NCBI RefSeq assembly: GCF_003991195.1
Contig: NZ_RCWL01000005.1
Location: 37,270 to 101,269 of the forward strand
Direction of reading: 5' to 3'
Origin: Gynurincola endophyticus
GTDB lineage: Bacteria > Bacteroidota > Bacteroidia > Chitinophagales > Chitinophagaceae
DNA: 64,000 nt
The position numbers and the translations under genes are program-made. This document shows positions 36,789-61,276 of the stretch, in pieces (the stretch's first letter is position 1; every line of letters begins with the position of its first letter). The notes under the pieces are model-generated. The model made no database searches. It saw nothing but the letters and a program-made list of their open reading frames with translations, and was not told the origin of the DNA.

Positions 36789-38288
36789 ATGACTGAATTA
36801 CGAAAAAAAGAACTCTGGGGCTACTCCATTGTATCCTTTGCCTATCTGTTGTCATTACTATACATCCTGTTAGACAATCCATTTCATGTGGATGAAGCGA
36901 TGTATTATCACCCGCGGTACCCGATTACACCATATACACCGGTCATTCATCTCTTCACATCCTTAATTTGTGTACTGGTGATCGGTCTGGTCTATTTTTA
37001 TTTTTTGCCAAAAGTGATCAACGAAGTAATCACCAGCAGGTTTTTTTTAATTATAATACCGGCAGCGTTGATTATTCTGGCTGCTGCTACTTTCTATAAC
37101 TTCGTCGCTTTCTCATCTTATGAGCCTCATGAATATTATCCGCGCAGGAGATTATTCTCGCTGGCTTTTAAAGAAGGCCTCACCGTAACGTTCATTATCA
37201 GTTTTATATTTGGTTTGTATGTGCTGGTAAGATACCTGCTTACCAGCCTTCACGACCGTGTATCGGGTGGCAGTAAAATAAAACAGGAGTTATTAGAGAG
37301 AACATTGATGGTATCGATTGGTAGTATACTGGCAGTAATCATTTTATTATTCTTTCAACAGTATATTCACCGGGTTTGGAGATTTTCATTAATCTTTCTG
37401 GTACCGCAATACATTATCCTGTTTATATTAGGTATCAATTATGTATATCCCGCTTTCAGTAAAGAAAAGAGTTTACTTAAACTATTCTTGAGGATCATTA
37501 TTATTACTTTAGTGATCACATTGCCACTATATACACTCTTTCATGAAGCTGCCGGTATCAGAGATGGAGAAACGAGTGTTACATTTTTCTTAATATTTGC
37601 AGCGAGTATACCATTATTCTGGTTTTTTTTACGAATTTACTACAACGATATTGTAAGGAAATTTGGAGCAATGGATGCGCTTCAATTGCAGGTAGATACC
37701 AAAACGGCCAATATTGATTTTTTAAGGTCACAGATAAACCCACATTTCCTTTTCAACGCACTGAATACACTATACGGACTGTCCCTAACAGAAAAGGCTG
37801 AAAGAACAGCGGAAGGAATACAGAAGCTGGGAGATATGATGCGATTTGTCTTAACAGAGAATCAGCAGCAAACGGTTTCTATTGATAAGGAGCTAAACTA
37901 TATATCACATTTTATTGATTTACAGAAATTAAGGACTCAGGCATCGGATAAGATTGTTATTACATTTAAGAAGTATAGCCATGATTGTAATCACTCTATC
38001 GCGCCGATGCTTTTGATTCCTTTAATAGAAAATGCCTTTAAGCACGGTATTAGTTTAACCCAGCCTTCCTGGATTACTATTCATCTCACTTGTGACGAAA
38101 AAAAGGTTTACCTGGATGTATACAATAGTGTACACCAGAAAACGGAAGGTGATACGGAGAAGTTTAGTAGTGGTATCGGTTTAAAAAATGTACAGCAACG
38201 ACTTTCATTATTATATCCCAACAAGCATGAGTTACAAATCAGAAATACCCCCAATGAATACATCGTACACCTCACCATCGAACCTTGA
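36789..38288 (+). CDS. LytS/YehU-type sensor histidine kinase
   Basis: The protein has about 500 residues. The N-terminal half holds roughly eight membrane helices (for example WGYSIVSFAYLLSLLYILL and IIIITLVITLPLYTLF). The C-terminal half is a His_kinase domain: phospho-accepting His319 in SQINPHFLFNALNTLYGLS, then the ATP-binding LLIPLIENAFKHGI and SSGIGLKNVQQRL. This is the LytS-like class that pairs with LytTR response regulators, one of which lies 1.3 kb downstream. I use the ATG at 36789 rather than the TTG 21 bases upstream. Its 3' end overlaps the DUF4407 gene, so these genes are probably translated together. Confidence 0.9.
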   Translation: MTELRKKELWGYSIVSFAYLLSLLYILLDNPFHVDEAMYYHPRYPITPYTPVIHLFTSLICVLVIGLVYFYFLPKVINEVITSRFFLIIIPAALIILAAATFYNFVAFSSYEPHEYYPRRRLFSLAFKEGLTVTFIISFIFGLYVLVRYLLTSLHDRVSGGSKIKQELLERTLMVSIGSILAVIILLFFQQYIHRVWRFSLIFLVPQYIILFILGINYVYPAFSKEKSLLKLFLRIIIITLVITLPLYTLFHEAAGIRDGETSVTFFLIFAASIPLFWFFLRIYYNDIVRKFGAMDALQLQVDTKTANIDFLRSQINPHFLFNALNTLYGLSLTEKAERTAEGIQKLGDMMRFVLTENQQQTVSIDKELNYISHFIDLQKLRTQASDKIVITFKKYSHDCNHSIAPMLLIPLIENAFKHGISLTQPSWITIHLTCDEKKVYLDVYNSVHQKTEGDTEKFSSGIGLKNVQQRLSLLYPNKHELQIRNTPNEYIVHLTIEP

Positions 38289-48389: not shown

Positions 48390-48586
48390 AACATAGCATC
48401 TTCTGTATCCTTACAGACAACGGTTATTATCATATTATTGTGTGCTACCTCAAAATCGAAATGATATAGCCTCTTCAAACAGACAGGCCAGAAGGTTTTT
48501 CGAAAAAGACCAGGTTTTTGGCCGAAAACGCTCTTTTAAGCAGAAATAATTCAAAAAAAAGGAAAAATTTTTGTTAAACCGCATTA
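48390..48586. other. Intergenic stretch upstream of the sulfur promoter
   Basis: I see no reading frame, tRNA or strong hairpin. The sulfur operator, promoters and leader ORF begin at its right end. Confidence 0.5.
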
Positions 48587-48605
48587 GTCTACCAAATAAG
48601 TAGAA
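48587..48605. promoter_or_regulatory. Putative sulfur operator, site 1
   Basis: GTCTAC-CAAATAA-GTAGAA: the five-base inner arms TCTAC and GTAGA are perfect with a seven-base spacer. It lies directly upstream of a -7 element, between where a -33 and -7 would sit. The same dyad occurs at 52560-52578 and 58331-58349. Confidence 0.8.
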
Positions 48606-48608
48606 AAA

Positions 48609-48616
48609 TATTTTTG
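48609..48616 (+). promoter_or_regulatory. Sulfur operon promoter, first -7 element
   Basis: TATTTTTG is an exact -7 match beginning four bases after operator site 1. No TTG at ideal distance was found, so the operator may replace normal -33 contacts. Confidence 0.6.
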
Positions 48617-48642
48617 TAGTTTAATTTGAACACCTATTTTTG
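48614..48642 (+). promoter_or_regulatory. Sulfur operon promoter, second tandem promoter
   Basis: TTG (48614-48616), an 18-base spacer and TATTTTTG (48635-48642) are present. The expected start near 48650 gives a leader of about nine bases before the leader ORF. Confidence 0.65.
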
Positions 48643-48658
48643 TTCTAACAAATCTGCT

Positions 48659-48721
48659 ATGGTTTATTTTTCTTCCATATTCCCCATGTCTAAGATGATG
48701 GCAACCTGCTGTTGCTGTTAA
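48659..48721 (+). CDS. Cysteine-rich leader peptide (putative attenuator peptide)
   Basis: This 20-codon frame has ATG at 48659 and stop TAA at 48719-48721. It ends Met-Met-Ala-Thr-Cys-Cys-Cys-Cys: four consecutive Cys codons (TGC TGT TGC TGT, 48707-48718) directly before the stop. An internal ATG at 48686 would give MSKMMATCCCC. It lies between the operon promoters and cysH, and overlaps two stem elements. The layout is that of ribosome-stalling leaders such as those of trp, his and leu operons, here for cysteine. No Shine-Dalgarno site is seen, as usual in this phylum. Translation is inferred. Confidence 0.75.
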   Translation: MVYFSSIFPMSKMMATCCCC

Positions 48722-48737
48722 TCATCTTATTGTTGCC
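48691..48737 (+). promoter_or_regulatory. Mutually exclusive stems over the Cys leader (putative attenuator)
   Basis: Stem 1: TAAGATGAT (48691-48699) pairs with ATCATCTTA (48721-48729), enclosing the Cys codons. Stem 2: GGCAAC (48700-48705) pairs with GTTGCC (48732-48737). The order 1, 2, 1', 2' means both cannot form as nested hairpins, and a ribosome on the Cys codons blocks both. A T-rich stretch (GATTTTCAATCTTTT) follows. Whether it controls termination or translation is open. Confidence 0.6.
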
Positions 48738-48768
48738 TGCCTGATTTTCAATCTTTTAAAAACATTAC

Positions 48769-49479
48769 ATGGAGCATCTGGAAACTTTTACTGAATTATC
48801 CTATCAAATTGATAGACTATCAATGAGTGAAGCATTGAAGCTTTTGTCGGACAAGTTTCCCGGCGAAGTGGTATTTTCTACCAGTTTCAGTTATGAAGAT
48901 CAGGTAATCACGTATCATATTTTTTCGCAACAGTTATCTGTAAAAGTATTTACACTTGATACGGGGCGACTGTTTCCAGAAACCTATTCGGTATGGAGCA
49001 GTACGCTGGAAAGATATCAGCAACCTATTGCAGTATACTATCCCGATGCAAAAGATATTGAAAGTTTTGTAACTCAGAACGGACCGAATGCCTTCTATGA
49101 ATCCACTGAACTCAGACAAAGTTGTTGTCAGATCAGAAAAGTGCAGCCCTTAAAGCGAGCGCTAAATGGTCAGTCTGTCTGGATCACAGGTCTGCGCGCC
49201 GAACATTCTCCCAACCGGTCGAACCTGCAGGTGCTGGAATGGGATGATACCAATCAGATTATTAAGTTTAATCCACTGCTGCATTGGACTACAGAAGAAG
49301 TGAAAGAGTGTATCAATAAATATAATATTCCTTACAACTCATTACATGATCGCGGTTTTATCAGCATTGGTTGTGCGCCGTGTACCAGGGCTGTTCGGGA
49401 AGGAGAAGATTTCAGAGCCGGGCGCTGGTGGTGGGAAGATAAGAGTAAAAAAGAGTGCGGATTGCACGTGCATCGTTAA
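48769..49479 (+). CDS. cysH: Fe-S type adenylylsulfate (APS) reductase
   Basis: The 236-residue thiol-dependent reductase turns activated sulfate into sulfite. The N-terminal nucleotide-binding SFSYEDQVI is followed by Cys119-Cys120 in RQSCCQIRKV and Cys202/Cys205 in SIGCAPCTRAVREGEDFRAGRWWWED. These four are the 4Fe-4S ligands of APS reductases. The catalytic Cys230 sits in KKECGLHVH. PAPS reductases lack the cluster cysteines. APS as substrate also fits the absence of a cysC kinase and the single-domain CysN. It is the first structural gene, 47 bases after the Cys leader ORF. cysD follows after 17 bases. Confidence 0.92.
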   Translation: MEHLETFTELSYQIDRLSMSEALKLLSDKFPGEVVFSTSFSYEDQVITYHIFSQQLSVKVFTLDTGRLFPETYSVWSSTLERYQQPIAVYYPDAKDIESFVTQNGPNAFYESTELRQSCCQIRKVQPLKRALNGQSVWITGLRAEHSPNRSNLQVLEWDDTNQIIKFNPLLHWTTEEVKECINKYNIPYNSLHDRGFISIGCAPCTRAVREGEDFRAGRWWWEDKSKKECGLHVHR

Positions 49480-49496: not shown

Positions 49497-50405
49497 ATGG
49501 AAACATATTCATTGGATTATTTAGATCAGTTAGAATCAGAGGCCATACATATATTCAGAGAAGTAGCCGGGCAATTTGAACGGCCTGCTTTATTATTCTC
49601 CGGAGGTAAAGATTCAATTTGTTTGGTACATCTGGCATTGAAAGCTTTTCGTCCCGGTAAATTCCCTTTTCCGCTGGTGCATATAGATACCGGCCATAAC
49701 TTTCCTGAAGCACTGGTGTTTCGTGACCGTTTAGCCGAGCAGCTGGGTGAAAAACTGATTGTCAGGAAGGTGGAAGATACTATAAAGGCAAAAGGGTTAA
49801 CTGAACCCAAAGGAAAATTTGCCAGTAGAAATGCATTACAAACCTATACTTTATTAGATACGATTGAAGAGTTTGAGTTTGATGCCTGTATTGGTGGTGC
49901 AAGGCGCGATGAAGAAAAAGCACGTGCTAAAGAAAGAATTTTTAGTGTGAGAGATGAGTTCGGGCAATGGGATCCAAAACTTCAGCGTCCCGAATTGTGG
50001 AATATCTATAATGGGAAAATTCATAAAGGAGAGAATGTGCGCGTATTTCCGATCAGTAACTGGACGGAGCTGGATGTATGGAATTACATCAAACGTGAAA
50101 ACATAGCATTACCCAATATCTATTTTTCTCACGAAAGAGAAGTCATCTGTCATCAGGGACAATTGGTAGCTGTATCAGATTTTATTCAATTAGAGGAGTC
50201 GGATACAGTGTTAAAGAAAACCGTACGATACAGAACGGTAGGAGATATGACTTGTACCGCAGCAGTTGAATCAACTGCCAGTCATATTGATGATATCATA
50301 AATGAAATTATTGCAACGAAAACCAGTGAAAGGGGAGAAACAAGAATTGACGATAAGGTTTCAGAAGCAGCGATGGAAGACCGCAAGAAAAACGGTTATT
50401 TCTAA
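49497..50405 (+). CDS. cysD: Sulfate adenylyltransferase subunit 2
   Basis: The 302-residue ATP pyrophosphatase subunit of ATP sulfurylase makes APS from ATP and sulfate together with CysN. The PP-loop is SGGKDS (residues 35-40), and ACIGGARRDEEKARAKERIFSVRD is the typical active-site block; FPISNWTELDVWNYI and YRTVGDMTCTAAV also match the family. I use the ATG giving METYSLDYLDQLE, since the in-frame extension overlaps cysH and does not look like family sequence. cysN begins 28 bases after the stop. The gene belongs to the operon cysH-cysD-cysN-cysE-cobA-cysJ-cysI. Confidence 0.95.
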   Translation: METYSLDYLDQLESEAIHIFREVAGQFERPALLFSGGKDSICLVHLALKAFRPGKFPFPLVHIDTGHNFPEALVFRDRLAEQLGEKLIVRKVEDTIKAKGLTEPKGKFASRNALQTYTLLDTIEEFEFDACIGGARRDEEKARAKERIFSVRDEFGQWDPKLQRPELWNIYNGKIHKGENVRVFPISNWTELDVWNYIKRENIALPNIYFSHEREVICHQGQLVAVSDFIQLEESDTVLKKTVRYRTVGDMTCTAAVESTASHIDDIINEIIATKTSERGETRIDDKVSEAAMEDRKKNGYF

Positions 50406-50433: not shown

Positions 50434-51675
50434 ATGGATATTTTGCGTTTCATAACAGCAGGAAGTGTGGATGATGGAAAGAGTACACTAATCGGTCGCT
50501 TATTATACGATTCGAAAAGTATAATGATCGATCAGTTGGAAGCTATTGAAAAGCAAACGAGGAATAAGTTGGCTGGAGAAATAGATCTGGCATTGCTCAC
50601 CGATGGTTTAAGGGCAGAGCGTGAACAGGGTATTACCATTGATGTTGCTTATAAATATTTTTCTACCAATAAACGGAAATTTATTATAGCAGATGCACCC
50701 GGTCACATTCAGTATACGCGAAACATGGTTACCGGTGCTTCTAATACAGACCTCGCGATTATTCTGATTGACGCCCGTAACGGTGTAGTTGAACAAACAA
50801 GAAGACACTCCATTATTACTTCGTTACTGAAAATACCGAAAGTGGTAGTAGCTGTTAATAAAATGGATCTGGTAGACTATTCGGAAGATATCTATAATAA
50901 TATTGTAATTGATTATCAAAAAGTAGCGACATCTCTTGGTATTAAGGAAATAACTTTTATTCCGCTTTCCGCTTTAAATGGTGATAATATAGTGGAAAAG
51001 TCTGAACGTTTATCATGGTATGATGGAGATTCATTACTTACGTTTCTTGAGAATGTGGAAACACATCAGTCGGTAAATCTGGATATCGCACGTTTTCCCG
51101 TTCAATATGTAATCCGCCCTCAAACAGAACACTTACATGATTACAGAGGATATGCCGGAAAAATAATTTCGGGTATATACCGGAAAGGTGACCAGGTTAT
51201 TATTCAACCCAGCGGAACTACTTCTACGGTTGAAAAAATTGAACTTGGAGGCAAAGAAGTAGAAGTAGCAGTTGCTCCACAAAGTATAGTGCTGCATTTA
51301 GCTGATGACGTTGACGTAAGCAGAGGGGATATTATCGTACCTGCCGGTCAACCTTGTAAAACAGCGCAGGAATTAGACGTGCTTTTGTGTTGGATGGATA
51401 GCAAAAAATTACAAACCGGTAATAAATATATTTTACAGATAAACAGTAAAACCGTTAGATGTGCAGTTAAGCATATTGCTTATCGATTAGATGTAAATAC
51501 ATTACAGAAAGATGAGCAGGTTAGCACAGCCGCTCTGAATGACATTGTCAGAGCAACCATTAAAACAGCCGCGCCTTTGCCACATGATGCGTATGAAACG
51601 CTTCGGTCGAATGGAGGTGCAATCCTGATTGATGAAACAAGTTGCGTAACGGTCGGAGCTTGTATGATTCAATAA
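50434..51675 (+). CDS. cysN: Sulfate adenylyltransferase subunit 1 (GTPase)
   Basis: This 413-residue EF-Tu-like GTPase drives the ATP sulfurylase reaction. Motifs G1 (GSVDDGKS, residues 10-17), G2/G3 (GITIDVAY, DAPGH) and NKMD are all present, followed by two beta-barrel domains. The chain stops after the barrels and carries no C-terminal APS-kinase (CysC) domain, unlike NodQ-type fusions. This agrees with the APS-reductase route. It lies between cysD and cysE, 30 bases before the latter. Confidence 0.95.
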   Translation: MDILRFITAGSVDDGKSTLIGRLLYDSKSIMIDQLEAIEKQTRNKLAGEIDLALLTDGLRAEREQGITIDVAYKYFSTNKRKFIIADAPGHIQYTRNMVTGASNTDLAIILIDARNGVVEQTRRHSIITSLLKIPKVVVAVNKMDLVDYSEDIYNNIVIDYQKVATSLGIKEITFIPLSALNGDNIVEKSERLSWYDGDSLLTFLENVETHQSVNLDIARFPVQYVIRPQTEHLHDYRGYAGKIISGIYRKGDQVIIQPSGTTSTVEKIELGGKEVEVAVAPQSIVLHLADDVDVSRGDIIVPAGQPCKTAQELDVLLCWMDSKKLQTGNKYILQINSKTVRCAVKHIAYRLDVNTLQKDEQVSTAALNDIVRATIKTAAPLPHDAYETLRSNGGAILIDETSCVTVGACMIQ

Positions 51676-51705: not shown

Positions 51706-52536
51706 ATGAGTTTTTATGAACAATTGTACAAAGAAAAAAGTAACACGAAAACAATTTATCCAGACAAAGAAAGTGTTACCCAGTTTGTTGACCAGTTAAT
51801 TGGTTTTCTCTTTTCGCCGCAACAAAACAAAATTGAAAGTTTGGCAGAATATCAGTACGCATACGAAGGCCTTGAAAGCCAGTTGACGAATCTGGTATAT
51901 GAGATTACTAAAGACGAGTTTTTGTCTCAGCAAATAACCAGTCATTTTTTTGAGCAACTTCCGGCTGTTCATCAATTGTTATTGAAAGACGCTGATACTA
52001 TTTTGCAGCATGATCCGGCAGCAGATAGTATTGAAGAAGTAACGCTCACATATCCCGGATTTTATGCTATTTCGGTTTACCGTTTTGCGCATGTACTATG
52101 GAAAAAGTCAGTAAAAGGATTACCCCGTTTGCTGACTGAATACGCCCATAGTAAAACCGGTATAGATATTCATCCCGGTGCTATTATCGGAGAATCTTTT
52201 TTTATTGATCACGGTACAGGTATTGTAATTGGTGAAACAGCAGTGATCGGTGATCACGTGAAATTATACCAGGGGGTAACTTTAGGCGCTATTCACAGCG
52301 ATGCAGGCAGAAAAAAAATACACCGCCATCCCAGTATCGGTAATAATGTTATTATATACTCCGGCGCAACACTTTTAGGAAATATTCATATCGGCGAAAA
52401 TTCCATTATCGGCGGAAATGTCTGGATTACTTACAGTGTTCCGGGTGGTTCTTTAGTCTATCATAAATCGGAAGTTATAGCACGAAAAGACTTCGATTTT
52501 GATTCTGCTGTTCATGAAATTTTGTTCAGACAGTAG
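51706..52536 (+). CDS. cysE: Serine O-acetyltransferase (EpsC-type)
   Basis: The 276-residue hexapeptide-repeat acetyltransferase makes O-acetylserine, the acceptor that sulfide is joined to for cysteine. The N-terminal helical domain precedes left-handed beta-helix repeats such as TGIDIHPGAIIGESFFIDHGTGIVIGETAVIG and NVIIYSGATLLGNIHIGENSIIGGNVW. The His in DHGTG is the usual catalytic one. The ending KDFDFDSAVHEILFRQ lacks the long CysE tail that binds O-acetylserine sulfhydrylase, so complex formation with CysK is unclear. No cysK gene is in the window. The second sulfur operator lies downstream, at 52560-52578. Confidence 0.9.
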   Translation: MSFYEQLYKEKSNTKTIYPDKESVTQFVDQLIGFLFSPQQNKIESLAEYQYAYEGLESQLTNLVYEITKDEFLSQQITSHFFEQLPAVHQLLLKDADTILQHDPAADSIEEVTLTYPGFYAISVYRFAHVLWKKSVKGLPRLLTEYAHSKTGIDIHPGAIIGESFFIDHGTGIVIGETAVIGDHVKLYQGVTLGAIHSDAGRKKIHRHPSIGNNVIIYSGATLLGNIHIGENSIIGGNVWITYSVPGGSLVYHKSEVIARKDFDFDSAVHEILFRQ

Positions 52537-52559: not shown

Positions 52560-52578
52560 ATCTACTAAAACGGTAGAC
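52560..52578. promoter_or_regulatory. Putative sulfur operator, site 2
   Basis: ATCTAC-TAAAACG-GTAGAC, with perfect TCTAC and GTAGA inner arms and the same seven-base spacer as the other two sites. It is only about five bases before the cobA start codon, inside the operon, with no clear -7 element upstream. Confidence 0.7.
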
Positions 52579-52582
52579 AAAT

Positions 52583-53422
52583 ATGCAAAAAAGAATAGAA
52601 CCATTCGGTAAAGTCGTATTCATTGGGGCTGGTCCCGGTGATCCGGAACTGATTACCGTCAAAGCAATAAAATATCTGCAGAAAGCAGATATTATTTTAA
52701 CCGACAGATTGGTGAGCAGGGCGATCCTGGAAGAATATGTACATCCGGGTGCAGAAATCATTTACGTAGGAAAACAATGCAGAAAAAAACAATCAACTCC
52801 TCAGATATCTATTAATGAACTACTGGTAGAGAAAGCCAAACAATTTCCACTGGTGGTACGCTTAAAAGGGGGAGATGTTTCTATTTTTTCAAATATACTG
52901 GATGAGCTGGAAACACTCGTAGAGCATCATGTTGATTATGAAATTATTCCGGGAGTAACTGCAGCGCTCGGTGCGGCAGCTTATGCCGGTATTCCTTTAA
53001 CCGCACGTAATTACGCTAACGGTGTTAGATTCATTACTTATTATAAAGCTGATGTAATTAATCAGCATTACTGGAATGAACTCGCGTCTACGAGTGATAC
53101 ATTGGTATTCTATATGTCAAGTGAAACATTACCTGAAGTGGTAAAACATCTGAAGGATGCAGGTATTGATGAGGAAAAAGAAATTGCTGTAATAGAACAG
53201 GGTACAACACCTTATCAAAATGTTTATACTTCAACATTTAACGATTACAATAGAATTCTCGGCACCAGACAGTTTGTAAGTCCATCTATTATTATTATCG
53301 GTAAAGTGGTACAGTTGCACGATGAATTTATCTGGATGACGAATGCCGGTTCTACAGAGTCATACTTTCCGGAAGTAAATCTTTCACCAGAAAAAGAAGT
53401 GAACAATGTTACCAGAGCCTAA
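52583..53422 (+). CDS. cobA: Uroporphyrinogen-III C-methyltransferase
   Basis: The 279-residue SAM-dependent methyltransferase (SUMT) makes precorrin-2, the precursor of siroheme for the sulfite reductase. Family blocks: GAGPGDPELITVKA (SAM loop, residues 15-28), YVGKQ, VRLKGGDVSIF (residues 92-102), EIIPGVTAALGAAAYAGIPLTAR, VFYMSSETLPEV and FVSPSIIIIGKVVQLH. It is a single-domain SUMT. The dehydrogenase/ferrochelatase step is supplied by the fusion protein at 56806-58299. Its start is immediately after operator site 2, and its end overlaps cysJ by 17 bases. Confidence 0.95.
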   Translation: MQKRIEPFGKVVFIGAGPGDPELITVKAIKYLQKADIILTDRLVSRAILEEYVHPGAEIIYVGKQCRKKQSTPQISINELLVEKAKQFPLVVRLKGGDVSIFSNILDELETLVEHHVDYEIIPGVTAALGAAAYAGIPLTARNYANGVRFITYYKADVINQHYWNELASTSDTLVFYMSSETLPEVVKHLKDAGIDEEKEIAVIEQGTTPYQNVYTSTFNDYNRILGTRQFVSPSIIIIGKVVQLHDEFIWMTNAGSTESYFPEVNLSPEKEVNNVTRA

Positions 53423-55103
53423 ACTAAATATATTAAACGATCTGTTGCGTTCGGCCAGTAAAGAAGAGCTGATCTGGATGAATGGGTACATGAGCGGCTT
53501 ACTGGCTCAACAGCCGGCTGTTCCGGTAAATACAGTTGTACAAACAGCTGTAAAGAAAATTACCATCGTTTATGGTACAGAAACAGGTAATGCTAAAAAG
53601 GTAGCCACTGAGTTTGCCTCTTTTGCCAAAAAGAAAGGTGTTGTGGCAAAACTACAAGGTTTAGATCAATACAAGTTGAATGACCTGCAGAAAGAAGAAT
53701 ATCTCTTTGCAGTAATCAGTACACAAGGAGATGGGGAAGCTCCGGCAGGTGCTAAAAAATTTTACGATTTTATTCACGCACAACCACTTCAGTTGAACAG
53801 CCTGAAATTCGGCATTCTGGCATTAGGAGATTCTTCCTATCCTCTTTTTTGTAAAGCCGGTGAAGATGTAGATCAACGGTTATCCCAATTAGGCGCAACA
53901 GCTATTTTGCCACTTGAAAGGTCAGATGTTGATTTTTCAGCAGTAGCTCAAAAATGGTTTGATGAAGTATTGAATGTACTATCGAAACAACACGTAGTTA
54001 ATACACCAGTAAATACTGCAACAAGTATCAAACCTAAAAGCGGTAAACAGTTTTACAAAGGAACAATACAACAGATTATTAATCTGAACGACCGGGGTTC
54101 TGCAAAGTCAACTTTTCATATTGAAATAGCAGTAACTAACAGTAATATATATGAAGTGGGTGATTCGTTAGGCGTTATTCCTAAAAATTCGGTTGCATTA
54201 GTACGTGAAATTATTTCATTGATTGGTGTCAATGAAGAAGAGTTACTTGATTTCAGAGGAGAACAGTTTACTGTTGGCGCATTCTTAAAAGAAAAGGCCA
54301 ATATTGTTTATTTGTCTTCCAGGGTAATACGTCAGTATGCTGCGATTACTAAACAGGAAATTCCTGATACAAGAATGGGGTTGTTAGAGTTGTTGAAAAT
54401 ATATCCTTCAAACGATTTGTCGCATTATTGTGAATTGATAAAGTGTCTCGAACCGAATGCTCCCAGACTGTATTCGATATCCTCGTCTCCTGAAGCTCAT
54501 TCAGGAGAAATTCATCTGACAGTTGCCTTAGATACTTTTAAAGTAAACGGAGAACTGAAGAAGGGGTTATGTAGCGCACAATTAAGTGATTGGAAAATTG
54601 ATGAAACGGTAGAGTTTTATATCCAACCTAACCATCATTTTAAACTACCCGATAATAACCGACCGGTGATAATGATCGGCCCCGGAACTGGCATTGCTCC
54701 GTTCAGAGCCTTTCTCTCACACCGTGACGCTATTGGTGCTGAAGGTAAAAACTGGTTGTTTTTTGGTGAGCAACATTTTGTTTCAGACTTCTTGTATCAA
54801 ACCGAAATTCAAAACTGGTTTGATACGGGGCTATTGCAAAGCGTGAGTGTTGCTTTTTCAAGAGACCAGTCGTACAAGATATATGTTCAGCACCGTATAC
54901 TGGAGCATGCAAAAGAATTCTGGCAGTGGATAGAAGAGGGTGCAATTATTTATATCTGTGGTGCTAAAAATCCGATGAGTACTGATGTATTAGAAGCAAT
55001 TGCAAAAGTAATTGAACGTTTCGGCGGCAAAGCTGAAGCCGAATCTATACAATATCTCGATGAATTGAAATCATCCGGTAGATTATTACTGGATGTTTAT
55101 TAA
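53406..55103 (+). CDS. cysJ: Sulfite reductase flavoprotein alpha component
   Basis: The 565-residue diflavin reductase passes electrons from NADPH to the siroheme subunit. The FMN-binding flavodoxin domain is residues 48-190 (IVYGTETGNAKKVA, STQGDGEAPAGAKKF, ILALGDSSYPLFCKAGEDVD). The FAD domain follows (APRLYSISSSPEAHSGEIHLTV), then the NADPH part (MIGPGTGIAPFRAFL, YICGAKNPMSTDVLEAI). The closing SIQYLDELKSSGRLLLDVY is typical of CysJ. An N-terminal helix of about 40 residues (ELIWMNGYMSGLLAQQ) is also family-like. It overlaps cobA by 17 bases, and cysI starts 17 bases after its stop. Confidence 0.94.
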   Translation: MLPEPKLNILNDLLRSASKEELIWMNGYMSGLLAQQPAVPVNTVVQTAVKKITIVYGTETGNAKKVATEFASFAKKKGVVAKLQGLDQYKLNDLQKEEYLFAVISTQGDGEAPAGAKKFYDFIHAQPLQLNSLKFGILALGDSSYPLFCKAGEDVDQRLSQLGATAILPLERSDVDFSAVAQKWFDEVLNVLSKQHVVNTPVNTATSIKPKSGKQFYKGTIQQIINLNDRGSAKSTFHIEIAVTNSNIYEVGDSLGVIPKNSVALVREIISLIGVNEEELLDFRGEQFTVGAFLKEKANIVYLSSRVIRQYAAITKQEIPDTRMGLLELLKIYPSNDLSHYCELIKCLEPNAPRLYSISSSPEAHSGEIHLTVALDTFKVNGELKKGLCSAQLSDWKIDETVEFYIQPNHHFKLPDNNRPVIMIGPGTGIAPFRAFLSHRDAIGAEGKNWLFFGEQHFVSDFLYQTEIQNWFDTGLLQSVSVAFSRDQSYKIYVQHRILEHAKEFWQWIEEGAIIYICGAKNPMSTDVLEAIAKVIERFGGKAEAESIQYLDELKSSGRLLLDVY

Positions 55104-55120: not shown

Positions 55121-56803
55121 ATGAGTAAAGATAAATTATCACCCGTAGAAGGAATTAAAACCTCCAGTGACGGATTAAGAGGAACCTTGAAAAAAAGTTT
55201 ACAAGACGGGTTAACCGGAGCATTGCACACGGATGATCAGTCTTTGATAAAGTTTCACGGAATGTATCAGCAAGACGACAGAGACCGTCGTCAGGAAAGA
55301 ACTGATAAAAAGCTCGAATGGTTGTATTCATATATGGTACGTTTACGCCTGCCAGGTGGAAAACTTAGTTCTGATCAATGGGTTGGACTAAACCATGTAG
55401 CCGGAGACTACTCTACCGGAATTATTAAAATCACTACCCGGCAAACAGTGCAGTTACACGGAATTATCAAAAACCACGTAAAACCTACACTGAAAGCCTT
55501 TAATACTTTTGCTCTGGATGCAATAGCTGCTTGTGGTGACGTGAATAGAAATGTAGTGTGTTCCGCACACCCACAGCATTCGGCGATACACGAAGAAATA
55601 TTTCAATACGCTGATAAAATATCTCAATTGGCACTACCTAAAACCAGAGCTTATTATGAGATATGGTTAGATGATGCTCCGCTTACCACTGAAAAGAAAG
55701 AAGAAGTTGAAAAAGACCCTTTGTATGAAGATAGATATCTCCCCAGAAAATTCAAAATTGGCATAGCCATACCACCTGATAACGATGTGGATGTATTTTC
55801 AAATGATATCGGATTAATTGCCATGGTGGAAAACAATCAGCTTAAAGGGTTTAACATCGCTGCCGGAGGTGGGCTGAGTACTACACATGGTAATGAAAAT
55901 ACGTATGCAAGATTAGCGTCCTTGTTAGGATTTGTAGATACGGAAGAAAAATTGTTGAAAGCTGTTTATGAAATCATCACCATTCAAAGAGACTATGGTA
56001 ACCGGTCGGATAGGAAACAAGCCCGTTTAAAATATACGATTGACAGAATGGGTTTAGATGTATTTAAGAAAGAGTTGCAAAACAGATGTGGTTTCGCATT
56101 GTCGCCAGTTGAGGCATTCGAATTTAAATATCGTTCGGATCATTACGGTTGGCACCAGAACCATGAAGGATTGTGGTATTATACTGTATTTGTAGAAAAC
56201 GGCCGGGTGTTGGATGTTGGTGAAACGAAGATAAAAACCGGGTTGCTTAAAATAGCAGAAACAGGTAAGGCCAGTTTCAGGTTCACCTGTAATCAGAATC
56301 TGATTGTGGGTGACGTTCCGGATAAAGATAAAAATACTGTAGAACGGTTATTGAAGGAATATGGAATTTACCAGCATACAGAACAACAATCTCCTTTCAG
56401 AAAAACAGCTATTGCTTGTGTAGCATTCAATACATGTCCTTTAGCATTAGCAGAAGCACAACGATACTTACCTGAATTGATAACTAAGATTGAACCGCTG
56501 TTGAAGAAATATGCATTAGAGGAAGAAGATATTTCTATCCGGATGACAGGTTGCCCGAATGGTTGCGGAAGGCCTTATGTGGCTGAAATCGGTTTAATCG
56601 GAACGGCTTATGGTGAATACAACCTGCATATTGGCGGAGACAGGCTTGGTTTCAGACTGAATACAAAATATCAATCGGGGCTGAAAGAAGATGAGATTCT
56701 GCACACACTTGATGATTTGTTCAATGATTATTCAAAAGAGAAAACTGAAGGAGAAACTTTCGGAGATTATTGTAATAGAGTAAAAATTGCAAAACCAGTA
56801 TAA
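55121..56803 (+). CDS. cysI: Sulfite reductase hemoprotein beta component
   Basis: The 560-residue siroheme-4Fe4S enzyme reduces sulfite to sulfide with six electrons. The cluster-siroheme ligands are Cys433 and Cys439 in CVAFNTCPLAL, and Cys478 and Cys482 in MTGCPNGCGRPYVAE. Two nitrite/sulfite-reductase half-domains are present (LRLPGGKLSSDQWVGL ... ITTRQTVQLHGI near residues 75-115, and the second from about residue 345). It is NADPH-type by its partner CysJ. It is followed after 2 bases by the dehydrogenase-transporter fusion, which provides siroheme. That spacing suggests translational coupling. Confidence 0.95.
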   Translation: MSKDKLSPVEGIKTSSDGLRGTLKKSLQDGLTGALHTDDQSLIKFHGMYQQDDRDRRQERTDKKLEWLYSYMVRLRLPGGKLSSDQWVGLNHVAGDYSTGIIKITTRQTVQLHGIIKNHVKPTLKAFNTFALDAIAACGDVNRNVVCSAHPQHSAIHEEIFQYADKISQLALPKTRAYYEIWLDDAPLTTEKKEEVEKDPLYEDRYLPRKFKIGIAIPPDNDVDVFSNDIGLIAMVENNQLKGFNIAAGGGLSTTHGNENTYARLASLLGFVDTEEKLLKAVYEIITIQRDYGNRSDRKQARLKYTIDRMGLDVFKKELQNRCGFALSPVEAFEFKYRSDHYGWHQNHEGLWYYTVFVENGRVLDVGETKIKTGLLKIAETGKASFRFTCNQNLIVGDVPDKDKNTVERLLKEYGIYQHTEQQSPFRKTAIACVAFNTCPLALAEAQRYLPELITKIEPLLKKYALEEEDISIRMTGCPNGCGRPYVAEIGLIGTAYGEYNLHIGGDRLGFRLNTKYQSGLKEDEILHTLDDLFNDYSKEKTEGETFGDYCNRVKIAKPV

Positions 56804-56805
56804 GA

Positions 56806-58299
56806 ATGTCGTCGGTAGAAACTTTAAGTATAAAAGATAAAAATCAGTTGTTCCCGGTTTTTCTCAAAATAGAACGGTTAAATATATTAATCGTTGGTGG
56901 AGGAAAAGTGGGAGCAGAAAAGTTAAATGCATTATTACAGAATTGCGACACCTGTCAGATAACTGTTGTGTCTGAGTTTTTTACACAGCAAACAGAAAGC
57001 CTGATCAATACGCATGAAAATGTAAAAGGCATACAGAAAGTATTTGATACCGGCGACTTGTTGAATGCACATCTGGTGATTGTAGCTGTGAGTAATCAGT
57101 TACAAAGTACAGCGATTGCAGAAGAAGCAAGAAACTACGGATTGCTGGTAAATGTTGCAGATCAACCTGAACTTTGTGATTTTTATCTTGGTTCGATTGT
57201 ACAGAAGGGTCAATTGAAAATTGCTATTTCTACTAATGGAAAATCGCCAACAGTTTCAAAAAGATTAAAAGAGATTTTAAATCAGTCAATTCCTGAACAT
57301 ATCAATATTTCACTGGATAATATCCATAAAATAAGACATCATCTCAATGGAAATTTTGAGGATAAGGTTCGGCAGTTAAATAAAATTACGAGTGTGCTGG
57401 TAGAAGAGGAGGAGGCGAGAAAAGAACGCAGGTGGAGAAAGATTGCTTCTTATTCAGTGATTGCTTTTGCACTGATGTTGATAGGTCATTTTATTTTCTC
57501 TTACATACCGCTGGATGTAGTTGGTCATTCTCTGACGGAATTTTATCATTCATTAGATCAGAATTTCGGAATCATGTTGCTGGCCGGCTTTCTGGCACAA
57601 TTGATAGATGGTGCATTGGGAATGGGATATGGCGTTACATCCGCTACCGTTTTATTAAGTGCGGGTGTGCCTCCGGCTGCTATCAGTGGTAGTATACATA
57701 CCGCCGAAATGTTTGCCAGCGGTGCTTCGGGATATTCACATTACAAGTTTGGAAATGTAAATAAAAAGCTATTCAAAGTATTGGTTATTCCAGGTGTGAT
57801 CGGTGCTATTGCGGGTGCCATATTGTTGGTGAAGCTGGGAGAAAAACATGTTGATTATATACGGCCCCTTTTAGCTTGTTACACATTATTTCTGGGTATA
57901 AAAATACTTTGGGGCGTATTTTATAAACGAACTTTTCAAAAGAAGTTCAAAAACTACAAAACACTCGCCGGAGTGGGTGGTTTTCTGGATTCTTTTGGCG
58001 GTGGTGGCTGGGGACCTATTGTTACAACTACGCTGATTAATAAGGGTAGGCATCCTCGTTATGTTATAGGTTCTGTTAGTTTAACTGAATTTTTTGTAAC
58101 CCTTGCCAGCGCCGTTACTTTTTTCATTTTTTTAGGAGTTCAACACTGGCAAACTATTACCGGTTTGATTGTGGGTGGTCTTATTGCCGCTCCGATAGCA
58201 GCAAAACTTGTGGGTAAACTTCCTAAAAAAACGGCTATGATACTTTTAGGAATTCTGGTAATTTTCTGGAGTATCCGTATACTGGTTAAACTGTTTTAA
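56806..58299 (+). CDS. Siroheme-synthase dehydrogenase domain fused to a TSUP (TauE/SafE-type) membrane transporter
   Basis: This 497-residue two-part protein has, at residues 15-200, the CysG-N/Met8p-type precorrin-2 dehydrogenase/ferrochelatase: NAD loop ILIVGGGKVGAEKLNALLQN, VADQPELCDFYLGSIVQKGQLKIAISTNGKSPTVSKRLKE. A charged linker (EEEEARKERRWRK) leads into about eight membrane helices of the TauE/SafE/TSUP family with two repeats: GFLAQLIDGALGMGYGVTSATVLLSAGVPPAAISGSIH and GGFLDSFGGGGWGPIVTTTLINKGRHPRYVIGSVSLTEF. The first half completes siroheme. The transporter half probably moves sulfite, sulfate or another sulfur anion. No stop codon or frameshift separates the parts. Confidence 0.9.
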   Translation: MSSVETLSIKDKNQLFPVFLKIERLNILIVGGGKVGAEKLNALLQNCDTCQITVVSEFFTQQTESLINTHENVKGIQKVFDTGDLLNAHLVIVAVSNQLQSTAIAEEARNYGLLVNVADQPELCDFYLGSIVQKGQLKIAISTNGKSPTVSKRLKEILNQSIPEHINISLDNIHKIRHHLNGNFEDKVRQLNKITSVLVEEEEARKERRWRKIASYSVIAFALMLIGHFIFSYIPLDVVGHSLTEFYHSLDQNFGIMLLAGFLAQLIDGALGMGYGVTSATVLLSAGVPPAAISGSIHTAEMFASGASGYSHYKFGNVNKKLFKVLVIPGVIGAIAGAILLVKLGEKHVDYIRPLLACYTLFLGIKILWGVFYKRTFQKKFKNYKTLAGVGGFLDSFGGGGWGPIVTTTLINKGRHPRYVIGSVSLTEFFVTLASAVTFFIFLGVQHWQTITGLIVGGLIAAPIAAKLVGKLPKKTAMILLGILVIFWSIRILVKLF

Positions 58300-58330: not shown

Positions 58331-58349
58331 GTCTACTAAAATTGTAGAC
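58331..58349. promoter_or_regulatory. Putative sulfur operator, site 3
   Basis: GTCTAC-TAAAATT-GTAGAC, with perfect six-base arms, 17 bases before the receptor start codon. It is the most symmetric of the three copies. Confidence 0.8.
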
Positions 58350-58366
58350 AATTAAATTATGAGAAA

Positions 58367-61276
58367 ATGAAACATTACCGTTTTCATCAACCAAAAATAA
58401 CATTCACTTTTATTCTTGTTTTATTTACAGTGCTGGCATATGCTCAGGAAACCCGGATTATTGAAGTGAGTGGAAAAGTACTCGACGAATTCAGAAACCC
58501 TTTAACGGATGTATCGGTTCAGGTAAAGAATTCAGTTTCCGGTACAACCACTAACAAAGAAGGTAATTTTCAGTTACGAACACGTTTAAAACTTCCTTTC
58601 ACTTTAGTCTTTAGCTCTATCGGCTTTAGGTCACAGGAGTTTGTGGTAGAGCGACTGGGTGCTCATCTTGAAGTACAATTAGAAACTCAATCTGTGTTGG
58701 GCGATGCAGTTGTTGTAACCGCATCGCGGGTAGCAGAGAGTATCTTAAAATCACCGGTGGCTATTGAAAAACTTGATATCCGTGCAATACGTGAAACACC
58801 CGCTCCGGGTTTTTATGATGCGCTTGCTAATGTAAAAGGCGTGCAAATGACAACTTCCAGTTTAACATTCAAAGTACCTAATACGAGAGGGTTTAATATA
58901 CCCAATAACTTTCGTTTCATGCAAATGGTTGATGGAGTAGATATGCAGGCGGCTACTTTAGGTGTGCCTTTGGGAAATGCTATCGGCCCCACCGAACTGG
59001 ACATCGCTTCTGTTGAAATTACTCCCGGAGCCGCCAGTGCTTTATATGGCATGAATGCTATTAATGGTATGGCCAACCTGCTTACAAAAAGCCCGTTTAC
59101 CAGTCAGGGTTTAAGTGTTTATCATAAATCAGGTGTCAATCATGTTGATAATAAAGACAGAAATGCCAGTATTCTGACGGAAACGGCTATCAGATATGCT
59201 AAAGCCTTTAATAATAAATGGGCCTTTAAAGTAAATGCCAGCTTCTTACGTGGAACGGATTGGGTTTCTAATACAGGTACTGATCAGAATTCTAACAATC
59301 TCAATACAGCTAATCCGGCTTATCCTGAATTAAATGGAACGGGTAATGTTGCGGCTGATCTATGGAATAAATATGGAGATGAAAATAATAATGCTGTAAC
59401 AATCACCGGTGTTAATTATCAGGGTAGAAGTAATACATTTATTTTAAGAAGAACAGGATATTGGGAAAAAGATCTTGTTAATCCCATTGTTGAGAATGTT
59501 AAGTTTGATGCAGCCCTGCATTATAGAATACATAGTAATGCCGAAGTGAGTTATAGTTATCGCTTCGGAAAAATGGATGGTGTTTTTCAACGTGGAAATA
59601 AAATTCAGTTAGATGATGTAAAAGTTCAGAACCATAAATTTGAAGTAAAGGGAAACAATTATATTTTCAGAACTTATTTAAGTGTTGAGAATACCGGTAA
59701 TTCTTATAATATAAAACCGCTGTCAGATAATCTTCAATTAACACATTTATCCAATAACGCCTGGGGTACCCGTTTTAAAGCTGCTTTACAGGAAGCATTA
59801 GACAATCAGATTGATCTTTCTACTGCAATGCAATCGGCCCGTCTGATTGCTGATCAGGGAAGAGTTGAGCCTGGTACCGCAGCATTTGATCAGCTAAAAC
59901 AAACGATCATCGGTATTAATAACTGGGATCATGTGAATGCCGGTATTGCAGATGCTCCTGCTACGGGCGGTGCCTGGCTGTTACAGAAAAGCAGAATGTA
60001 CCACTCCGACTTTCAATGGGATTTCTCTAATGATATTAAATGGTTTGATTTACTGGTGGGGGCAGATTTACGAATTTATGAAGTGATTCCTGATGGAAAT
60101 AATTTCGTTGACTTTTCGCGTCCGGTTGCCGAAAGAAATAAACCTATTGGTAACAGTACAACTGATTTTGGCAAAAATGTTCTTTATAAAAAGTACGGTG
60201 CTTTTGCACAGGTAACCAAAACATTCTTCGATGAGAAATTAAAAACTTTTTTTTCATTGCGGTTCGATCATAATCTTGAGTTTACCCCGAAAGTAAATCC
60301 CCGTATTGCAGTGGTATATACTTTAGCAGAGAAACATAACCTGCGTTTGTCATATCAGAATGGATTCAGATTTCCGGCTTTATTTGAAGCGATTTCTTTT
60401 GTGAATAACGGAAATGTAAGGAGAGTAGGAGGGTTGTCTTATATTAATGAAGGATTGGGATACCTGGATAACTCTTATACACTGTCTTCAGTAAATAATT
60501 TTAATGCAGCTTATAACAGAGATAGAGATCCTGCACTGGCTTCAGGTGTGGTGGATGAAGCAGCTGCCTTAAAAAACAAAAATTTGTTGGAGGTAACAAA
60601 CCTGGCCGCTACCCGGCCGGAAAGAATTAACTCGTTTGAATTCGGTTATAAATCTGTTCTGCTGAATAATAAACTTGTTTTTGATATCGATGTGTATCTT
60701 AATAGATACGATGGTTTTTTAGGTCAGGTAGAAGTAGCAGTTCCTTCTACGGATAAAATACTCACAGACGGCGCTGTAATAGATATGGTACAGGCCAATA
60801 GAAGTAAACAAACCAGATACCGTGTATATACTAATGCAAAGAATGTTTATGAAAATTATGGCTTTGCGCTGGGTACTACTTATATCATACACAAAACCTA
60901 TACTGTTTCAGGAAATTTAAGTTATAATGATATCGCTGCTCAAAAGAACGATGATATTTTTATCAATGCCTTTAATACACCGAAATGGGTAACGAATATC
61001 AGTTTCGGCAATAGAAAACTTACAGAGCATGTCGGATTTAATGTGGTGTGGAGATGGCAGGATGCTTTTGAATGGTTTAGCCCGCTTGCTAACGGAAAAA
61101 TTGCTGCATTCAGTACGGTAGATGCACAGGTTTCTTTCGCAGTACCCCAATTATTTTCCACTATAAAAGTTGGTGGTAGCAATATATTGAACCATCGTTA
61201 TGTGCAGTATGCAGCCGGCCCTACTATCGGTGCACTGTATTACGCATCCATTACGGTAGATGGTTTATTAAAATAG
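58367..61276 (+). CDS. TonB-dependent receptor of the sulfur island
   Basis: This 969-residue outer-membrane importer has a signal peptide (MKHYRFHQPKITFTFILVLFTVLAYAQ). A carboxypeptidase-regulatory-like domain covers about residues 28-115 (SGKVLDEFRNPLTDVSVQVKNSVSGTTTNKEGNF). The plug follows (VVVTASRVAESILKSPVAIEKLD; NTRGFNIPNNFRFMQMVDGVD; ELDIASVEITPGAASALYGMNAINGMANLLTKSPF), then a barrel to the end. The substrate is not evident. No SusD partner is present, so it belongs to the classic TonB receptor type. Because it carries operator site 3, its cargo is probably a sulfur source or a cofactor such as iron for Fe-S enzymes. The final residues have no clear terminal aromatic. Confidence 0.9.
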   Translation: MKHYRFHQPKITFTFILVLFTVLAYAQETRIIEVSGKVLDEFRNPLTDVSVQVKNSVSGTTTNKEGNFQLRTRLKLPFTLVFSSIGFRSQEFVVERLGAHLEVQLETQSVLGDAVVVTASRVAESILKSPVAIEKLDIRAIRETPAPGFYDALANVKGVQMTTSSLTFKVPNTRGFNIPNNFRFMQMVDGVDMQAATLGVPLGNAIGPTELDIASVEITPGAASALYGMNAINGMANLLTKSPFTSQGLSVYHKSGVNHVDNKDRNASILTETAIRYAKAFNNKWAFKVNASFLRGTDWVSNTGTDQNSNNLNTANPAYPELNGTGNVAADLWNKYGDENNNAVTITGVNYQGRSNTFILRRTGYWEKDLVNPIVENVKFDAALHYRIHSNAEVSYSYRFGKMDGVFQRGNKIQLDDVKVQNHKFEVKGNNYIFRTYLSVENTGNSYNIKPLSDNLQLTHLSNNAWGTRFKAALQEALDNQIDLSTAMQSARLIADQGRVEPGTAAFDQLKQTIIGINNWDHVNAGIADAPATGGAWLLQKSRMYHSDFQWDFSNDIKWFDLLVGADLRIYEVIPDGNNFVDFSRPVAERNKPIGNSTTDFGKNVLYKKYGAFAQVTKTFFDEKLKTFFSLRFDHNLEFTPKVNPRIAVVYTLAEKHNLRLSYQNGFRFPALFEAISFVNNGNVRRVGGLSYINEGLGYLDNSYTLSSVNNFNAAYNRDRDPALASGVVDEAAALKNKNLLEVTNLAATRPERINSFEFGYKSVLLNNKLVFDIDVYLNRYDGFLGQVEVAVPSTDKILTDGAVIDMVQANRSKQTRYRVYTNAKNVYENYGFALGTTYIIHKTYTVSGNLSYNDIAAQKNDDIFINAFNTPKWVTNISFGNRKLTEHVGFNVVWRWQDAFEWFSPLANGKIAAFSTVDAQVSFAVPQLFSTIKVGGSNILNHRYVQYAAGPTIGALYYASITVDGLLK

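Follow-up and report, generated by a model that had tools for sequence, protein, structure and literature searches.

At the head of the sulfate-assimilation genes of Gynurincola endophyticus lies a frame of only twenty codons that ends in four cysteine codons, which raises the question of whether it is a leader peptide that senses cysteine and, if so, by what device a ribosome on it would control the genes that follow. The locus lies within the window analysed here, i.e., the whole 64,000-nucleotide stretch at positions 37,270 to 101,269 of contig NZ_RCWL01000005.1 (assembly GCF_003991195.1), and all positions below are those of the window. An earlier note on this DNA had read the locus as an amino-acid attenuator for cysteine, with two mutually exclusive RNA stems as its switch.

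A co-directional sulfate-assimilation cluster starts at 48769 on the forward strand. Its first gene, cysH (48769..49479), encodes a (phospho)adenylyl-sulfate reductase (NCBIfam TIGR02055, NF002537) and is followed on the same strand by cysD (49497..50405; NF003587, TIGR02039), cysN (50434..51675; TIGR02034), and genes for an EpsC-type serine O-acetyltransferase (51706..52536; NF041874), a uroporphyrinogen-III C-methyltransferase (52583..53422; TIGR01469), a cysJ-like sulfite reductase flavoprotein (53406..55103), the sulfite reductase hemoprotein CysI (55121..56803; NF010029) and a 497-aa fusion of a siroheme synthase N-terminal part with a TauE/SafE sulfite exporter (56806..58299; TIGR01470, and PF01925 over residues 258-491). 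All of these matches were over cut-off except that of the cysJ-like protein, which scored 543 bits with TIGR01931, below the cut-off of 668. Upstream of cysH, the leader ORF occupies 48659-48721 on the forward strand (20 codons plus TAA) and reads MVYFSSIFPMSKMMATCCCC*. Its 3' end is TGC TGT TGC TGT TAA (48707-48721), with the four Cys codons at 48707..48718, and 47 nt separate the stop from the cysH ATG; frame, terminal Cys codons and gap are exactly as the earlier note had described them. The start is predicted at 48659, and further in-frame ATGs stand at codons 10, 13 and 14. No NCBIfam family matched the leader peptide in a profile search, and Rfam returned eight weak matches, every one far under its own gathering score. 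The pattern TGYTGYTGYTGYTRA matched five times in this genome, with an open frame and an ATG at the cysH match only.

The genus is represented by this genome alone, therefore the comparison is between genera. From 195 genomes of the family (Chitinophagaceae) we took 116 strong CysH matches and read 110 upstream regions, leaving out G160, G053, G009, G067, G108 and G129 as well as 11 weaker matches. To count as a leader, a frame had to start with ATG, span 8-45 codons, carry three or more Cys among its last 12 codons and lie no more than 260 nt from cysH. Such frames preceded cysH in 48 of the 110 regions as raw hits; the reverse strand gave 3/110, and 20 shuffles averaged 2.1 with a maximum of 6. 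Two frames (L084, L090) were judged to be part of other genes and removed, resulting in 46 kept leaders across 29 genera, e.g., MFRSHAIQIMYISCCNKYCCC, MQFTTTIKFLRMLCFNKCCCC and MTYQTIYCCCCCFC, and 64 of the 110 cysH genes without one. Terminal runs of at least three residues were of Cys at 33 loci, of Leu at four and of Lys at one. By context, a leader was present at 1/31 loci where cysH lies less than 60 nt after another gene and at 45/79 otherwise. Three Cys in a row within the last six codons were found in 33/173 short ORFs before cysH as opposed to 5/3970 elsewhere in the same loci, a disparity that leaves next to no probability for a chance frame in a U/G-rich leader, a reading favoured by the small size of the frame and by nothing else.

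Sister species keep the peptide. One pair (L007/L008) differs in its leader codons by three synonymous and no nonsynonymous changes, a second (L012/L014) by four and one, and a third by one of each; between distant leaders the differences are mostly nonsynonymous and lie away from the Cys run. Such retention would suit a peptide that is itself functional, e.g., a Cys-rich metal- or thiol-binding microprotein. However, between genera no relationship is apparent in the N-terminal part, the length at cysH ranges from 13 to 36 residues and the number of Cys varies, whereas the parts that persist are the Cys-rich end by the stop and the position before cysteine genes, and we regard a functional peptide as highly improbable. 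At one further locus (L034) a different frame, MVDFWQCRPTGCCGITFYLII, stands before cysH, and its counterpart in L025 appears frame-shifted; this is possibly a decayed or non-run leader.

A further 120 cysH loci, of which 40 were class-wide and 80 named (family members and repeats of earlier loci being among the 80), gave 19 raw matches within 400 nt and none on the reverse strand. The class-wide set excluded G393, G348, G430, G284 and G251 together with all more distant CysH types. Thirteen matches were kept after removal of two repeats (L157 and L166, of L013 and L059) and four atypical frames (L118, L137, L142, L225). Among the kept leaders are one from Rufibacter ruber and those of four genomes in family f5, whose peptides resemble each other, e.g., MTHIKQHHSFIKSAGMMCCFCCCC. 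Among the Pedobacter, Mucilaginibacter, Flavobacterium and Chryseobacterium loci sampled no leader was kept, the Flavobacterium frame L225 having been set aside.

The cysteine leader is also functionally coherent, since relatives have one before cysS, the cysteinyl-tRNA synthetase gene, and before metY, which encodes an O-acetylhomoserine aminocarboxypropyltransferase/cysteine synthase, i.e., a sulfhydrylase (TIGR01326 over cut-off, one protein). Genome scans with TGYTGYTGYTGYTRA were noisy, most of the loci read having no ATG in the matched frame, and hit one cysH and one cysS leader. The first cysS leader, found by this pattern search, lies 65 nt before its gene (TIGR00435 over cut-off, one protein). 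With 30 of 57 cysS matches read, a poly-Cys leader preceded the gene in 8/30 relatives, and in 0/30 on the reverse strand. A second poly-Cys leader stands before a divergent metY gene in several loci; in the metY set, which held 26 loci including one without a start site (L261), leaders preceded the gene in 14/25 relatives' loci, with 3/25 on the reverse strand. The metY leaders number 15 in another count because a shorter upstream cut adds L239. In this genome, cysS has no poly-Cys leader, and metY gave no match at 1e-150. The general feature of a leader-peptide attenuator, a conserved ORF with cognate codons before the operon of the pathway, is present here, and on these sequence comparisons the frame before cysH is very probably a cysteine-sensing leader peptide.

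Two TAnnTTTG boxes, which we take to be the Bacteroidota -7 consensus, precede the frame on the forward strand as a candidate upstream promoter (48609..48616) and a candidate downstream promoter (48635..48642), the second ending 16 nt before the leader ATG. Across the whole window the box is not commoner than in shuffles, and the sole promoter-like site of a sigma-70 scan on the forward strand near the leader is at 48410. Among relatives, a TAnnTTYG box within 60 nt before the leader ATG occurs at 38/46 cysH, 9/13 further cysH, 6/8 cysS and 7/15 metY leaders, the background being 4/276 windows. The predicted distance from box to leader ATG has a median of 28 nt for the 38 cysH leaders and is 4-12 nt in six of the eight cysS leaders.

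Beside the promoters lies an exact operator-like inverted repeat, GTCTAC-N7-GTAGA (48587..48604, assigned to neither strand), a candidate DNA site for a sulfur regulator. At 38 of the 46 leader-bearing cysH loci, the 140 nt that precede the leader ATG contain the full repeat GTCTACN7GTAGAC with one to three mismatches; control windows in the CDS of those loci show four or more mismatches. Some leaderless cysH loci also show similar repeats. This genome holds five exact copies of GTCTACN7GTAGA. With up to two mismatches allowed, the pattern is not enriched genome-wide (810 matches, and 1184 for its reversed form), and we therefore give weight only to exact copies that lie near genes. Exact copies stand before cysH (48587-48604), before the methyltransferase gene at 52583 (52561-52578) and before a TonB-dependent receptor gene at 58367 (58331-58348). 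These sites could possibly represent a candidate sulfur regulon under a putative DNA-binding protein and, given that the repeats lie near promoters, such a regulator may add a second layer of control to that of the leader.

As to the output of the leader, the two stems described in the earlier note are both perfect complements at the positions it gave. Stem 1 joins 48691-48699 (TAAGATGAT) to 48721-48729 (ATCATCTTA), and stem 2 joins 48700-48705 (GGCAAC) to 48732-48737 (GTTGCC), all on the forward strand; the 3' arm of stem 2 is drawn from sequence, the other arms from sequence and folding. In the minimum-energy fold, GGCAAC alternatively pairs within the Cys codons. The 151 nt fold of the window leader has a z of -1.78, with 10/200 shuffles equally good, and the 58 nt around its stop have a z of -3.1, among the strongest of the cysH set. 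For the cysH class the same 58 nt show a weak hairpin tendency (mean z -0.77, 8/46 below -2); five control windows gave mean z from -0.34 to +0.37, one of them with 7/46 below -2. Across the 46 cysH loci, duplexes of the Cys region with the spacer, start region, CDS and upstream DNA were not better at the own locus than at others (mean ranks 0.48-0.53), and the region from leader to cysH+25 was not more folded (mean z -0.50) than its controls (-1.10, -0.68). Relatives bear out the short frames with Cys runs and the poly-Cys leader before the operon, in 29 genera, and no conserved counterpart of the stems was found at the other cysH loci: the mutually exclusive stems as a conserved switch fail the duplex tests and folding controls and are rejected at family level. 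Stems 1 and 2 are possibly a local feature of the window locus.

The metY leaders form a stronger set than those of cysH in this respect, with a mean z of -1.86 over the 58 nt around the stop. Their hairpin, GTATGCC-GNRA-GGCATAC, has 85.7% of cells paired in an alignment of 13 hand-cut stretches, some rows of which MAFFT misplaces. It is conserved yet unproven by covariation, since only one pair changed on both sides, which is no better than shuffles (232/500). The hairpin follows the Cys run and in many loci contains the stop codon, therefore several of the peptides end Cys-Met-Pro.

An intrinsic terminator combined with mutually exclusive stems would be the classical attenuator, and the family has a leader-plus-terminator design for other amino acids, as seen when one script scored terminators in all leader sets (with a shuffle expectation for all but the Trp set). 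His-rich leaders precede hisG in 28/30 family loci (30 of 32 matches), all 28 with a terminator-like element where 0.5 were expected from shuffles, and leaders with Trp runs precede trpE-like genes in 26/29 family loci (30 of 70 matches, one without a start; none of the matches reached the model's curated cut-off), 25 of the 26 with such an element. In this genome, a His-run leader at hisG (L355; MIQNIHSIHHHHTYLRR) and a WWW leader at the trpE-like gene (L384; MKQIALNNNWWWHTNFNRGL) both have terminator-like elements. Among cysH leaders they number 5/46 (2.8 by shuffle) and 1/13 in the further set (0.5), and no terminator-like site was found on the forward strand at the window leader, in agreement with the remark in the earlier note that no clear U-run follows stem 1. 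An intrinsic terminator at cysH was rejected on this near-shuffle level and on the window leader, and despite the two perfect stems with their strong local fold, we consider the classical attenuator very unlikely here, no conserved stems having been found at other cysH loci and the terminators being scarce. The contrast with the His and Trp leaders suggests that a terminator-poor design characterises cysH leaders as a class and is not peculiar to the single locus. At cysS (2/8, 0.2 by shuffle) and metY (6/15, 0.8) the elements are above shuffle level, so intrinsic termination may partly serve those leaders.

The main rival to attenuation by Rho is translational attenuation, in which the free leader RNA would hide the cysH start, stalling of a ribosome on the Cys codons would free it, and mRNA decay or polarity would follow. 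The cysteine biosynthetic genes of M. smegmatis are cited as translation-attenuated in PMC13236596, the weak hairpin tendency around the cysH leader stop points in the same direction, and at five of the 46 loci (L067, L037, L022, L011, L031) the Cys region pairs with its own cysH start above nearly all others (rank <0.05). However, when the pairing of the Cys region with its own cysH start was compared with that at other loci, the result over all 46 was null (mean rank 0.48), and the stretch from leader to cysH+25 is not extra-folded. As such, translational attenuation seems rather unlikely to us.

Attenuation by Rho rests on the spacer. Between leader stop and cysH (48722..48768, forward strand) C exceeds G (C.213, G.085) and the spacer alone has a fold z of +0.46, marking a candidate Rho-entry region. 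As a class, cysH spacers have C.235 and G.115 and are unfolded (mean z +0.08). The C-over-G state follows the Cys leaders at 44/46 cysH, 13/13 further cysH, 8/8 cysS and 15/15 metY loci, 80/82 in total, and regions without a leader have it in 32/64 cases at cysH and 13/22 at cysS. Fisher tests against 152 other intergenic 5' regions gave p 9.9e-8 for cysH, 9e-4 for the further cysH, 0.021 for cysS and 4.4e-4 for metY; the spacers of His (6/28) and Trp leaders (11/26), jointly 17/54, differ from those of Cys leaders at p 8e-18. All of these p-values are indicative only, as the rows are related species and not phylogenetically independent. Weak points of the argument are that C over G is also the commoner state in the controls (85/152) and that the effect at cysS is modest (p 0.02 to 0.03). 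According to PMC12121999, Rho is believed to prefer pyrimidine-rich RNA without structure, and a title in the reference list of that paper names C-over-G sequence. The feature expected of a Rho attenuator, an unstructured C-over-G stretch by the leader stop, is present, its unstructured part being shown at cysH, and the gene for Rho is encoded in this genome.

We propose that transcription would begin just upstream and that the leader ORF would be translated immediately. With ample Cys-tRNA, the ribosome would pass the Cys codons, stop and depart, leaving the vacated, C-rich, G-poor and unfolded spacer accessible to Rho, which would terminate transcription in the spacer or in early cysH. With Cys-tRNA scarce, the ribosome would stall at the terminal Cys codons, hold the edge of the spacer and exclude Rho, and the cysHDN...JI operon would be transcribed. 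Relatives would use the same device for cysS and metY. What is established, by sequence comparison, is the ORF, the Cys run, the placement at cysteine genes, the near-shuffle level of terminators at cysH and the C-over-G spacer; we infer that the leader is translated, that ribosomes stall on it, that Rho is the effector and in which direction the operon responds. A ribosome stalled on the first Cys codons would shield little of the spacer, which speaks against the Rho step. Rho would be the most likely effector, and the chances that it is the termination step of the cysH leader appear about even. The complete proposal, a cysteine-sensing leader-peptide attenuator in which a stalled ribosome would block termination by Rho, we favour slightly.

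Leader ORFs linked to Rho termination downstream are known from Escherichia coli. The tnaC leader, which senses tryptophan, is tied to Rho termination, and there a ribosome stalled beside the stop sits at the edge of the Rho-entry stretch, a parallel to what is proposed here. In toiL-topAI, an antibiotic-sensing leader, Rho termination has been measured and follows translational repression (PMC12121999); at cysH the action of Rho is putative.

Poly-Cys leaders are also found in distant bacteria. The mycobacterial poly-Cys sORFs are said to be leaderless, their ATG forming the 5' end of the mRNA, going by the title of Canestrari et al. 2020. Poly-Cys leaders were predicted in Mycobacterium, Propionibacterium acnes and Bifidobacterium longum, with no conserved hairpins, and Rho was suggested on pyrimidine motifs that follow them, termed weak evidence and not conserved (PMC1262725). 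By the same paper, the mycobacterial sORFs share with ours the Cys run by the stop before cys genes, the lack of a conserved terminator and the pyrimidine-rich spacer. They differ in that they belong to another phylum, that the peptides are unrelated by eye, that the C-over-G spacer was tested here as a class feature whereas their motifs are called not conserved (PMC1262725), and that an operator-like repeat beside the promoter and leaders at cysS and metY occur here as well. The peptides are very short, and we assume that mycobacterial and Chitinophagaceae leaders are convergent. A Cys-codon uORF before cysS is likewise shared by uORFC-8-2 of Rhodobacterales, for which PMC8632094 proposes ribosome-mediated attenuation at tandem Cys codons and lists a pair of conserved Cys codons together with two stems and an intrinsic terminator. 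The runs here are usually longer, and its 3' terminator has no match at the window leader and no general one among cysH leaders, where such elements are near shuffle level; terminator-like elements occur in 2/8 of our cysS leaders. Within the phylum, the part of PMC9723704 available describes clues for leader-peptide attenuation at amino-acid operons of Flavobacterium psychrophilum, cysteine not being named there, and we found no poly-Cys leader of Bacteroidota in titles or the starts of abstracts, in a search that mostly lay outside subscription papers. Shine-Dalgarno signals are largely absent in Bacteroidota, according to PMC3155529 and PMC6847099, and this is the setting in which the leaders would act.

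What would be new is a variant of the leader attenuator, namely a class for cysteine in which terminators at cysH are few or absent. The His and Trp leaders of the family share with it the short ORF, the run of cognate codons and the position before a cognate gene, but have terminators almost throughout and no general C-over-G spacer. It is a tentative reading, with somewhat less than even chances, that one cell would hold two output devices, the His and Trp leaders working through intrinsic terminators and the cysteine regulon through a C-rich Rho device that mostly lacks them, plus a DNA operator, in Chitinophagaceae and perhaps other Bacteroidota; that this regulon would comprise sulfate assimilation, cysteinyl-tRNA synthetase and homoserine sulfhydrylation is a part of that reading which we put forward just as cautiously. 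Leaders with terminators (His, Trp) and leaders poor in them (Cys) coexist in the family and in this genome, at hisG, the trpE-like gene and cysH, and therefore offer a direct test of what sets the output device of an attenuator. If the proposal is true, poly-Cys leaders would be present in distant phyla, and tiny genes would gauge the supply of cysteine across a bacterial family.
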